DNA of 37,397 bases, from NCBI GenBank assembly GCA_029242545.1, contig JAQWTV010000128.1, forward strand, positions 68,817 to 106,213. Direction: 5' to 3'. Both the position numbers and the translations under genes were made by a program. Source of the stretch: Roseibacillus sp. (lineage in GTDB: Bacteria; Verrucomicrobiota; Verrucomicrobiia; Verrucomicrobiales; Akkermansiaceae). Shown here one piece after another: positions 3,263-36,884 of this stretch; within the stretch, counting starts at the first letter, position 1, and every line of letters starts with the position of its first letter. A model generated the notes under the pieces. It did no database searches, was not told the origin of the DNA, and saw nothing but the letters and a program-made list of their open reading frames with translations.

Positions 3263-3913
3263 TTATCTCGTCACCGGTTGGAGGATTTCTCCTCCTATTC
3301 GGTCGTTTTCATGGATCTGGAGATAATGGAGGGCTCTTTGAGCCCTGCTGGCCGCGGGGTCCTTCAAATATTGCTCCAGTTGGGGGGAGAGCACCCCGAA
3401 GACGGATGTCAGATCCACTTTCCACATTCCGCCCTCCCAGACAAAAGAGACAAGGGCGTCACCATGTTTCTCTCCTGGCGCGAGAAAGACAGTGGCGACG
3501 GCTTCCTCTCCCGGTTGCCTGATAAGAATTTCTCCGATGTCCAGAAAGTGGGGTGCTCCACCGGGAAAGGTCATAGAGTCAAAGGCCTCCCGTATGATCC
3601 TTCGGCTGTTTGTGGTAGCTAGGTCTTCCGGACCATACTTGTGGCGAAGAGAGAGACAGGCGAAGAGGGCGAATGGGGGGAGGTCGCTCAGGCCCCTCTC
3701 GTCGGCGTTAAGTAAGTGAGGAAGAAGGCGATCGTAGTAGTCGAACGTTCTTTGGCTGACGTAGCGGAGAGCCTCCTCTCCTCTTCTGGCGTAGAAGGCC
3801 TGACGGAACTCGGAGAAGGATGTGCGGATTTCCGCGCGCTGCTTGTTCAGGGACTCCCCACAGGAGGAAAGAAGAATTAAACCGAGCACCCCGATGAGCC
3901 GAACCATATTCAT
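3263..3913 (-). CDS. Predicted lipoprotein of unknown function, coupled to selA
   Basis: I do not recognise the family. The 216-residue product starts with a short lipoprotein signal (hydrophobic stretch at residues 6-15, then LSSC with the lipidation Cys at 18), so it should be anchored in a membrane. The rest is soluble, with an early alpha-helical part (residues 22-70, charged) and a later beta-rich part in which EEAVATVFLAPGEKHGDALVSF and WEGGMWKVDL resemble the strands of NTF2-like or DUF4878-type folds. Its ATG overlaps the selA stop in an ATGA arrangement, so translation is probably coupled. A second ATG two codons in is also possible. Any functional link to selenium is unproven. Confidence 0.8.
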   Translation of the reverse strand: MNMVRLIGVLGLILLSSCGESLNKQRAEIRTSFSEFRQAFYARRGEEALRYVSQRTFDYYDRLLPHLLNADERGLSDLPPFALFACLSLRHKYGPEDLATTNSRRIIREAFDSMTFPGGAPHFLDIGEILIRQPGEEAVATVFLAPGEKHGDALVSFVWEGGMWKVDLTSVFGVLSPQLEQYLKDPAASRAQRALHYLQIHENDRIGGEILQPVTR

Positions 3914-5280
3914 TGCAGGGTCTCAAGGAGAGCGTTGACAATGCTTTGATCCTGCGAGGGAAAAACGGTGCGTAGGTTGAGGAGGAATTTGTCGTCACTG
4001 ACGTAACCTACGATTGCAGGGTCACCACACCTCAGGATTCGGGCCAGTTTTCCGAGGGAAGATCCAACCGATGTAATCTCGAGGGCGATCGATGGTATTT
4101 CTGCGCGGGGCATAGTGCCGCCTCCGGTTCTGGAGAGGGTCTCTACGATAGAGACCGGGAAGGAGAGATCCTTCAGCTGAGAGGAAATCTCTTCCGCACG
4201 AATACGAAGTTCTTCCACGGGGGTGGAGAGAAAATCGAGGACAGGGATACTGGGTTTTGTCTCTCCCTTGCACGCAAGGTAGTCGTCGATGCATTCCTGC
4301 AGTACTGTGAGGATAAGCTTGTCACAGCGGACCGCCCGGAAGAAAGGCTCGGACTTGATGCGTTCCACCAAGTCTGCATTTCCGGCGATGATTCCTGCCT
4401 GAGGCCCGCCAAGAAGTTTATCGCCTGAAAATATCACAAGGTCGATGCCATTGCGGAGGGCGTCCTGCGGGGTTGGTTCATGATCGATGGGCGCCAGCTG
4501 ATCAGTGTTCATTACCGCTCCTGATCCAAGGTCCTCAACAAGGGGGATGCCGTGATTGTGGGCAAGGGATGAAATCTCAGTTACATCTGGCTCATCGGTG
4601 AATCCTTCGAGGTAAAAATTGGACCGGTGAACCTTGAGGATCAGGGCAGTACGATCACTGATGGCGTCGGCATAATCCTTGAGATGAGTTTTGTTAGTGG
4701 CTCCCACCTCGATCAGTTTCGCCCCGGAAGTTTCGAGAACCTCAGGGATGCGGAATCCACCCCCAATTTCCACCAGTTCCCCTCGGCTGACTATGACCTC
4801 GTTCTTTTCAGAGGAGATCAGAGTGCGAAGGGTCAGGACGAGGGCTGCAGCGCAATTATTGACCGCAGTGGCGGCCTTGGTCTCCAGGAGAACGGCAAGT
4901 GCGGTTTCGAGATAGCCCGCCCGCTTTCCCCGTTTTCCGTCGAGGAGGTTGAATTCGAGGTTGGAGTATCCCGTGGCAACCTCGCTCAGGGTTCCAGATG
5001 CGCGTTGGCCGAGGGGAGATCGACCGAGGTTGGTATGGATGATAACTCCTGTAGCGTTGATGACAGGCTGGAGCCTCGAAGAAGAAAAATCCTTAAGGCC
5101 ACTCTGGATCTCCTGTTCGATGGAAGCTCTATCGGCAGCTTCTCCTTCGGCGAGCCGGGTACGCCACTCAGAGAGACGGCGTTTGACAAAGCCCGTGACG
5201 AGAGGGCGAGGGAGATCGCTCTCCCCCGTGAGGCGCTTGGCTAGCGTCTCTACGGAGGGCAGTTGACTGAAGTCAGGCAT
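3910..5280 (-). CDS. selA: L-seryl-tRNA(Sec) selenium transferase (selenocysteine synthase)
   Basis: SelA is the PLP enzyme that converts Ser-tRNA(Sec) to Sec-tRNA(Sec) with selenophosphate. It is 456 residues, close to E. coli SelA (463). It shows the N-terminal domain (residues 1-70), the NATGVIIHTNLGRSPL block at about 75-90, SNLEFNLLDGKRGKR at 106-120, LVEDLGSGAV at 247-256 and the PLP-lysine motif FSGDKLLGGPQAG with Lys288. All expected landmarks are present, so it should be active. The start is ATG at 5278-5280; no clear Shine-Dalgarno is visible. It lies 30 nt downstream of the rhomboid-like gene and overlaps the lipoprotein gene by 4 nt. No selB, selC or selD is present in the window. 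Its presence supports reading the in-frame UGA at 36636 as selenocysteine. Confidence 0.96.
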   Translation of the reverse strand: MPDFSQLPSVETLAKRLTGESDLPRPLVTGFVKRRLSEWRTRLAEGEAADRASIEQEIQSGLKDFSSSRLQPVINATGVIIHTNLGRSPLGQRASGTLSEVATGYSNLEFNLLDGKRGKRAGYLETALAVLLETKAATAVNNCAAALVLTLRTLISSEKNEVIVSRGELVEIGGGFRIPEVLETSGAKLIEVGATNKTHLKDYADAISDRTALILKVHRSNFYLEGFTDEPDVTEISSLAHNHGIPLVEDLGSGAVMNTDQLAPIDHEPTPQDALRNGIDLVIFSGDKLLGGPQAGIIAGNADLVERIKSEPFFRAVRCDKLILTVLQECIDDYLACKGETKPSIPVLDFLSTPVEELRIRAEEISSQLKDLSFPVSIVETLSRTGGGTMPRAEIPSIALEITSVGSSLGKLARILRCGDPAIVGYVSDDKFLLNLRTVFPSQDQSIVNALLETLQ

Positions 5281-11129: not shown

Positions 11130-11431
11130 GCGATCATCCGCCGTGCCGTCCTTGACTACGCAAGCCACGTTCCCGTAGCCCAATAGGTTGGGAGCTTCCT
11201 TCGAAGTGACACCTTCCAGTAAAGGCATGATCTCACTCCGCAGGGGCTGCTCCCTTTGTCAAAGCATCGGTCCGGGCGCGAGCCAAGAATTGACGCACAC
11301 AGTAGACTCGGAAACCCTAGCTCACAGAGTGCGTAATCGCAACGGGGTTTTCCGATTCGATGAGATTTCGCCCTTTTTGGGCGTCTTTCGCAGCTCACAG
11401 GCCCACTGGAGGGTAGGATTTTCCACAGGGA
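11130..11431 (-). other. Interval without a convincing gene; possible structured RNA on the minus strand
   Basis: This stretch lies between the convergent nudix and C39 genes. No frame in it resembles a known protein; the open frames are Cys- and Arg-rich and run into neighbouring signals. Read on the minus strand it contains several potential helices: a 5-bp CGCCC/GGGCG hairpin (11369-11383), ACGCAC pairing with GTGCGT around 11294-11334, and a 7-bp helix GGCTACG/CGTAGTC around 11153-11180. It ends at a terminator whose T-tract is better on the minus strand. It could be a long 3' UTR of the C39 gene or a separate non-coding RNA. I could not match it to tmRNA, RNase P RNA, SRP RNA or 6S RNA by motif. 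Confidence 0.3.
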
Positions 11432-36436: not shown

Positions 36437-36524
36437 AGAAACACTGTTGAAGCCGCCACGTTACAGTTTATGCCCTATGAAGAGAGGACTAGCTCATTTT
36501 GCTGCGTTCGCTACAATGACCTCG

Positions 36525-36884
36525 ATGAATTTATTCAGAGTAACCCTGCTCGTTGTTCTTCTGCCGCTGGGCTTTATGGCTCCGGCTCTGGCCGAGGAGA
36601 AAAAACCTTCCCTGATCTACTACTATTTCGATGGATGAGTGCTTTGTGATAAAATTACGGTCATCGTGAATGACCAGAGCAAACAGCATGGCAAGAAAGT
36701 TGAGATTTCCGCCTGCAAGGTTGGAGAAGGGAATAGCAAGGAAGATATCAAGAGCGCGAAGTTGGCGAGTCATGGTATCGTGGCCAGAGATAAGGATGGG
36801 AAGCTGGTAGCCGCAGTTGAAGGTCACAATTATGGCAAAGCTAAAGTAGTGGAAGTAGTTAGTAAATTGCTCAAGGTGAAATAG
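36525..36884 (+). CDS. Candidate selenoprotein: exported thioredoxin-like protein with a U-x-x-C motif (in-frame UGA read as Sec)
   Basis: Reading the UGA at 36636-36638 as selenocysteine gives a 119-residue protein ending at TAG 36882-36884. ATG 36525 opens a clean signal peptide (MNLFRVTLLVVLLPLGFMAPALA, then EEKK), so it is exported. Earlier in-frame starts at 36477 or 36516 would lengthen the leader. The mature chain reads as a thioredoxin-like fold: strand SLIYYYF, then DGUVLCDK with Sec38-V-L-Cys41 at the start of a helix, strand KVEISACKV, helix SKEDIKSAKLAS, strand HGIVARDKDGKLVAAVEGH and a final helix KVVEVVSKLLK. The usual cis-proline is not evident. A SECIS-like hairpin follows the UGA and selA is in the same window. 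A TGC/TGT-to-TGA nonsense mutation is the main alternative. The homologue family is unrecognised. Confidence 0.72.
36639..36680 (+). promoter_or_regulatory. Predicted bacterial SECIS element
   Basis: Right after the UGA, GGTCAT (36659-36664) pairs perfectly with ATGACC (36670-36675) around the 5-nt loop CGTGA, which has G at its second position. The loop begins 27 nt after the UGA, within the roughly 16-37 nt spacing known for bacterial SECIS. A lower helix GCTTT/AGAGC (36641-36645 with 36676-36680, one G-U) extends it across a 13-nt asymmetric loop. The hairpin is within the coding frame, as required for SelB. Confidence 0.6.

Follow-up and report, generated by a model that had tools for sequence, protein, structure and literature searches.

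The stretch of DNA analysed here (the window, 37,397 nucleotides) is part of contig C18 of a 3.99 Mb Roseibacillus sp. genome assembly. It carries a reading frame that begins with ATG at 36525, ends with TAG at 36882-36884 and contains a single in-frame TGA, at codon 38, followed by 81 further codons. These coordinates confirmed those of the initial annotation, which had proposed that the frame encodes one secreted selenoprotein and not two adjacent unrelated fragments. With the TGA translated as U, the protein after its putative signal peptide reads KKPSLIYYYFDG-U-VLC. From composition alone, the chance of 81 open codons after a TGA is about 0.03; the open frame in a single genome is thus weak evidence, and it is conservation across genomes that decides. 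The features of the gene and the selA gene of the same window are collected in Table 1. The window also holds a 6S RNA (11131-11311, minus strand), which scored 47.5 bits against an Rfam gathering score of 46.4.

Table 1. Features of the selenoprotein candidate locus and the selA gene in the window.
Feature	Position	Strand	Remarks
selA, L-seryl-tRNA(Sec) selenium transferase	3910-5280	-	PF03841 and TIGR00474 above cut-off
-10-like element TACAAT	36512-36517	+	7 nt upstream of the start codon
Predicted selenoprotein ORF	36525-36884	+	119 residues, Sec at 38; homologues translate across the same codon
Putative signal peptide, residues 1-23, ending APALA	36525-36593	+	Judged by eye
Sec codon UGA (U38)	36636-36638	+	First redox residue in U-V-L-C
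Cys41, presumed resolving residue of UxxC	36645-36647	+	Invariant, 40/40 rows of alignment A3
Candidate SECIS hairpin GGUCAU-CGUGA-AUGACC	36659-36675	+	Apical loop 36665-36669, 26 nt after the UGA
His83-Gly84, Gly at the presumed thioredoxin cis-proline place	36771-36776	+	Invariant in 40 rows of A3 and four Cys homologues
His101, after the Gly aligned to thioredoxin Gly92	36825-36827	+	Invariant in 40 rows of A3 and four Cys homologues

We searched several genome sets for homologues. In a set of 98 genomes, 19 matched: 17 with one internal TGA (the window's own genome included), one in which the gene was cut by a contig end (G014), and G074, which carried a Cys homologue. A scan of a genome collection, with peptide patterns that contained no Sec residue, returned 47 named loci, each with a single TGA inside the match. 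When 386 genomes of the order were searched with a profile, 52 matches turned up, spread over 51 genomes, and 43 genomes had a one-TGA member. The nine matches without TGA were four Cys homologues, a fragment in G624, and weak matches in G501, G490, G091 and G094, of which the G501 protein was rejected as a member because it was an ordinary WCGPC thioredoxin. The three sets overlap and their counts are not additive. When the window protein and the 47 named loci were aligned, the codon was TGA in 48 of 48 members, and reading the site in each of the 43 order-wide one-TGA members placed the TGA at the U of UxxC, the first redox position of C-x-x-C to which the initial annotation had assigned it; because the members are related, these counts are not independent. 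The nearest named homologues, from metagenome-assembled genomes titled Akkermansiaceae bacterium and Roseibacillus sp., were 92 to 93% identical. Homologues aligned across the UGA and kept it, which favors one selenoprotein over two unrelated fragments.

Of the alignments used, A1 comprised 15 of 17 members (L006 and L009 left out), A3 comprised 40 of 48 (without L051, L054, L055, L064, L072, L073, L089 and L092), A4 comprised 46 of 48 (without L051 and L054), and A7 consisted of A4 plus L170-L173, giving 50 sequences of which 42 were distinct. In a sample of the phylum, only the window's own genome matched (1 of 387, at E 1e-5), and a peptide-pattern scan of a viral contig collection gave 18 pattern matches, none a relative. 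One family record is titled Lentisphaerales (L079), and overall the family looks restricted mainly to Verrucomicrobiales. The metagenome-assembled genome MOX_bin101 has two selenoprotein copies on different contigs (L071 and L073), either paralogues or the product of a mixed bin. The G624 fragment (G624:C67:10524-10670, L161) retains just the C-terminal portion of a member, and immediately ahead of it is the end of another frame that looks by eye like a transposase, so the gene appears to have suffered an insertion.

The coding sequence is under purifying selection both upstream and downstream of the UGA. Over 105 pairs, dN/dS was 0.12 for the 11 codons that precede the UGA, 0.15 for those from +13 to the end, and 0.305 over the whole upstream part when the signal peptide was included. 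The codon immediately before the UGA (36633-36635) was GGA in 43 of 48 members, with an entropy of 0.55 versus 1.61 to 1.94 for other conserved glycines.

Upstream of the start codon, a TANNNT box lay at a distance of 4-7 nt in 30 of 48 members, compared with 3 of 26 other genes in the window, and a Shine-Dalgarno-like string from a short list was present in 1 of 48. Because such boxes were common and Shine-Dalgarno-like strings rare, the mRNA may be leaderless; we treat this as a lead, the members being related and many of their starts having been chosen by eye from the signal peptide.

A hairpin fitting a bacterial SECIS had been reported downstream of the UGA; its geometry was borne out, and whether its energy reaches the published limit depends on the stretch folded. 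With a stem of 6 bp and a loop of 5 nt, the hairpin, checked by script, satisfied the geometry of the bSECIS model, which in the available text of its source specifies a stem of 4-16 bp, a loop of 3-9 nt with G in the first two loop bases, a distance of 16-37 nt from the UGA, and a minimum free energy no higher than -7.5 kcal/mol (PMC13188914). Alone it is weak, at -5.6 kcal/mol for the 17-nt core in the window and -7.1 kcal/mol with three flanking bases per side. Folding of the 23-nt stretch brought 1 of 47 members to the -7.5 kcal/mol limit, whereas 21 of the 47 reached it when the 51 nt that follow the UGA were folded and any structure was counted; three further members gave -16.7, -15.1 and -6.1 kcal/mol.

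The pairing itself was conserved. In A7, 96.8% of cells in the stem were paired, and shifting one side of the stem by 1 to 3 columns reduced this to at most 47.2%. Of 48 members, 45 had the loop CGUGA and the other three had AGUUG or AGUUA; members read later showed the same loops, with the GU of NGUNN invariant in every member read. One stem pair varied between G-C and G-U. The third pair was C-G, not U-A, in G487, G477 and G517 (L170, L172 and L173), probably a single event since all three are from one genus, and the 51-nt stretch folded to -15 to -17 kcal/mol in two of them. The swap to C-G changes Val46 to Ala and Asp50 to Gly, so that in this genus base pairing seems to have been preserved at the cost of otherwise conserved residues; G512 and G539, which are listed with these three by genus or family group, retain U-A. 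Two-sided changes occurred in 4 cells of A7, which 0 of 500 shuffles matched, a result obtained only after the four rows L170-L173 had joined the first 46; in those 46 rows (A4) there was only one two-sided cell, and 180 of 500 shuffles reached it. The number of pairs with a two-sided change in A7, two, was matched by 45 of 500 shuffles.

Constraint at synonymous sites provided evidence separate from covariation. Synonymous entropies at codons +8 to +11 were 0.15, 0.34, 0.34 and 0.00, compared with a mean of 1.40 in 24 conserved codons beyond +12, while the flanking codons +6 and +12 were not frozen (1.29 and 1.00). At codon +7 the third base was G in 40 of 48 members while the residue was Thr, Ser, Ala or Lys. 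We also considered an overlapping hairpin, UUACG-GUCAU-CGUGA, as the SECIS and rejected it because its pairing in A7 was 81.4% versus 96.8% for the GGUCAU hairpin (81.6 versus 96.9 before the last four rows); it too has some covariation, matched by 11 of 500 shuffles. A first script, which placed the stem start within 22 nt, found some hairpin that obeyed the rules in 16 of the 39 distinct sequences, and in a few of these it was another structure.

The machinery for selenocysteine was found in the same genome. The selA gene, whose presence in the window had been noted at the outset, scored 495.5 bits against a cut-off of 267.9, and its end overlaps by 4 bases a 216-residue ORF (3263-3913, minus strand) that by eye resembles a lipoprotein, an arrangement that suggests co-translation with selA. 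Of the further genes that the initial annotation had named as a check, selB (contig C65, 279 bits versus a cut-off of 242) and selD (contig C5, 368 bits) were present and selC was recovered in part. The selD gene is of the Sec type, itself interrupted by a TGA that is followed by a strong hairpin with the loop GUU; the loops are compatible with one SelB reading both this hairpin and that of the thioredoxin-like gene. In the window's genome tRNA-Sec fell below the Rfam cut-off (42.8 versus 47 bits), and a search with the locus of a congener recovered of selC only the first ~33 bases, where contig C68 begins. As its 5' bases sit at a contig start, selC is cut by an assembly break, and a whole tRNA-Sec with anticodon UCA was found by ARAGORN in four congeners. 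Proximity of selC to a contig end was also seen in G013 (C9:147) and G021 (C175:2), besides the window's own genome (G000:C68:1-74, L097), and a repeat or assembly problem beside selC is a possible cause.

The distribution of these genes was compared with that of the family. selB exceeded its cut-off in 16 of 17 genomes with a family member versus 45 of 98 overall (hypergeometric P about 8e-6), and outside the window's own genus it did so in 7 of 7 (P about 6e-4). Of the 17, 12 had a tRNA-Sec scoring above the Rfam cut-off; that search was unspecific, since 61 of the 98 genomes and 5 of the 14 controls passed it. Among 22 chosen genomes, selA was above cut-off in all 22 and selD in 21, with an internal TGA in selD in 17 of them. 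One genome, G010 (86% complete), has the gene, selA and selD, with neither selB nor tRNA-Sec above cut-off.

Cys-for-Sec homologues, which the initial annotation had pointed to as support, were also found. Four genomes of one genus in the Verrucomicrobiales encode lipoprotein-like proteins (CFLC...SHG...AH; L018 and L133-L135) with C-F-L-C at the place of U-x-[LMF]-C, which share with the Sec family the S-H-G motif and the terminal His. An hhalign comparison of the two families gave a probability of 98.9, with the first Cys aligned to Sec. Unlike the Sec family, these proteins have by eye a signal sequence that ends in a lipoprotein-type Cys; identity between the families is ~20%, and we found no curated name for the Cys family. 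It lacks the VIVND peptide encoded by the hairpin, and where Sec members have KI-x-VIVND over the hairpin it has unrelated residues, as would be expected if the RNA shapes the Sec-family peptide. All four Cys-homologue genomes hold selA and selD, so the Cys is not simply due to lack of the pathway; selB was found in G074, the one examined for it. The genome searches made turned up no close Cys ortholog for the Sec family. A Sec member and a Cys homologue occur together in G514 (G514:C587 and G514:C2), which with 4% contamination may be a mixed bin. At two of the four Cys loci the convergent next gene resembles by eye a rhodanese-type sulfurtransferase (L163 5023-5427, L166 5179-5580).

With these data we could weigh other explanations of the UGA. 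It could be a true stop followed by a second gene with its own start, since a GTG directly after the UGA in the window opens an 81-residue frame and a start-type codon stands at that place in 17 of 48 members. The next codon in the other 31, however, is not ATG, GTG or TTG, and 24 members have a Pro codon there; a downstream product alone would be without strand 1 of the fold, the codons over the hairpin are frozen, and the Cys homologues are continuous across the site. We regard a second gene as very unlikely. Reading of the UGA as Trp or another standard residue, through a changed code or a suppressor, would account for the open frame and for nothing besides, and we consider it extremely unlikely: UGA acts as a stop elsewhere in the window, since 15 of the 26 other ORFs taken as genes end in TGA; the homologues carry Cys, not Trp, at the site; and the genome encodes selA, selB and a TGA-containing selD. 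As for a sequencing error, or a recent nonsense mutation in a gene that is decaying, the evidence does come from assembled genomes only, but the same TGA is present in every aligned member and in 43 genomes of the order, and purifying selection continues downstream. The recurrence of this TGA in dozens of separately assembled genomes makes sequencing error untenable, and we assign error or decay a negligible probability.

The selenocysteine reading is carried by the conserved in-frame UGA, selection on both sides of it, the hairpin, the machinery, the Cys homologue and the predicted fold. Judged from these sequences, the gene almost certainly encodes a small, probably exported thioredoxin-fold protein in which an internal UGA is decoded as selenocysteine, and the initial annotation was supported in both its observation and its interpretation.

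The thioredoxin-like fold that had been read from the helix and strand pattern was borne out by structure prediction. With AlphaFold2, given a 40-row alignment, most of the domain reached a pLDDT of 97-98 (the mean was 87.9 and the pTM 0.75), and the predicted elements, E-H-E-H-E-E-H, follow the thioredoxin order, making this a confident model of a thioredoxin fold. In a Foldseek search, the best 50 PDB matches listed were thioredoxins and thioredoxin-like chains with a TM of about 0.6, headed by a designed chain; the thioredoxins in this list were 12-23% identical to the window protein. The family shares with thioredoxin (PF00085, TIGR01068) the fold order and a redox motif that starts helix 1, and differs from it in having U-x-[LMF]-C in place of WCGPC, in being exported as judged by eye, and in the His-Gly that replaces the cis-proline. 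In two profile alignments to solved thioredoxins, Gly84 fell on the Pro of an Ile-Pro or Val-Pro, which we take to be the thioredoxin cis-proline, with His83 on the residue just before it. In the same profile alignment His101 came directly after a Gly that presumably corresponds to Gly92 in E. coli thioredoxin numbering.

Given this arrangement, we propose the following mechanism. SelB would bind the short hairpin, which lies 26 nt downstream of the UGA, and deliver selenocysteyl-tRNA, as conservation and the presence of the machinery suggest, and the product would be exported. The selenolate of Sec38 would then attack the substrate, and Cys41 would resolve the intermediate as a selenenylsulfide. 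Because the UxxC sits at the start of the first helix, we infer thiol/selenol redox chemistry, which is probably what the protein carries out. His83 and His101, placed by the active site through alignment to thioredoxin, would probably tune the selenolate or shuttle protons, and replacement of the cis-proline by Gly84 may open the substrate site. The protein is most likely a periplasmic UxxC oxidoreductase.

Gene neighborhoods were compared at 48 loci, many of them shortened by contig ends, using BLAST clusters of ORFs of >=90 aa up to 6 kb per side, and no neighbor was conserved family-wide. The most widespread neighbor cluster was present in 12 of 48 loci, and sharing tracked lineages, for example 7 to 8 Roseibacillus-type loci. 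At some family loci no ORF was called at the selenoprotein gene because the caller halts at UGA.

An alternative role for the same selenoprotein is metal binding, with Sec38, Cys41, His83 and His101 forming a site for a periplasmic soft metal such as copper or mercury. The cis-proline of thioredoxin helps to exclude metal from the active site, and in this family it is replaced by Gly; neither histidine varies among the 40 Sec rows or the four Cys homologues. Against this, a family-wide neighbor gene of any kind is lacking, and the closeness of the histidines to Sec comes from alignment; we consider a metal site unlikely, yet a real alternative. Returning to the oxidoreductase, a fuller reading can be offered tentatively, at somewhat less than even chance as a whole: that this is a Sec-only branch forming an undescribed exported family of the thioredoxin fold, with His-Gly in place of the cis-proline, a leaderless mRNA and a minimal SECIS, in which Sec would have been kept across several families and genera of one order in a Sec/Cys/His/His site unlike those of known thioredoxins.

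We compared the family with those already named. The window protein was above no curated cut-off in Pfam or NCBIfam, and PHROGs gave no match at E 1. It scored 13.6 bits against PF00085 (cut-off 23.5) and 17.6 against TIGR01068 (cut-off 96.8), and the strongest NCBIfam E-value over the 40 A3 members was 2.5e-6, to a clostridial TrxA model. Weak Pfam matches to DUF6520 (2 of 12 members, E 1e-4) and choice_anch_I were taken as chance. The NCBIfam model thylak_slr1796, which we take to be linked to TxlA, was a sub-threshold match in 40 of 40 members, and we likewise assume that cd02950 describes TxlA-type thioredoxins. The NCBIfam selenoprotein models SaoT (NF040730), TsoX (NF045809) and DF (NF049942) matched 4, 3 and 6 of the 40 members, with best E-values of 0.004, 0.008 and 0.013, respectively.

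SaoT, TsoX and DF are selenoprotein families in a 2026 inventory of 119 prokaryotic selenoprotein families, the available text of which names SaoT as thioredoxin-like and also includes Sec-containing thioredoxins (PMC13188914); our comparison with this inventory ran through the Pfam and NCBIfam libraries only, not through its CDD- and PANTHER-listed families. GOS_C, a hypothetical protein with UxxC and a Trx-like fold according to the available text of PMC2398784, was rejected as an identification, since its model (NF045500, Omp28_seleno, 377 positions) gave nothing above cut-off in the genome and nothing at the gene at E 10. The same text, on the 2008 Global Ocean Sampling selenoproteome, describes 212 'Trx-like 3' selenoproteins that have UxxC and weakly resemble cd02950, and counts 183 Cys homologues (PMC2398784). 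Like our family these are marine and have UxxC, a likeness by description only, not sequence, and some reads of the family may sit in the 'Trx-like 3' bin. The term undescribed, used in the initial annotation, therefore stands with respect to Pfam, NCBIfam and PHROGs and is qualified by this possible overlap.

The word Verrucomicrobi is absent from the main text of PMC13188914, PMC9312934, PMC12013277, PMC1088965 and PMC2398784. Among the matches listed for selenoproteins of Verrucomicrobia or Verrucomicrobiota, the titles and abstract openings revealed no paper on the family; at that level we likewise found no selenocysteine literature naming Roseibacillus, and none on the family for Verrucomicrobi with SelB. 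This is a new, well-supported selenoprotein family, with the possible overlap with 'Trx-like 3' as a caution.

The family is spread through the Verrucomicrobiales, and the main text of those selenoproteome papers does not name the phylum. Because the UGA is present in every member checked, the Cys relatives are distant and the hairpin is weak, the family is probably hard to find either with SECIS models or through Cys/UGA pairs. If the fuller reading is true, the weak lone hairpin would help to explain why surveys based on SECIS elements and on Cys pairs passed the family over. The genomes of the Cys relatives have selA and selD, and the family would offer a clean case for what selenocysteine buys an exported protein.
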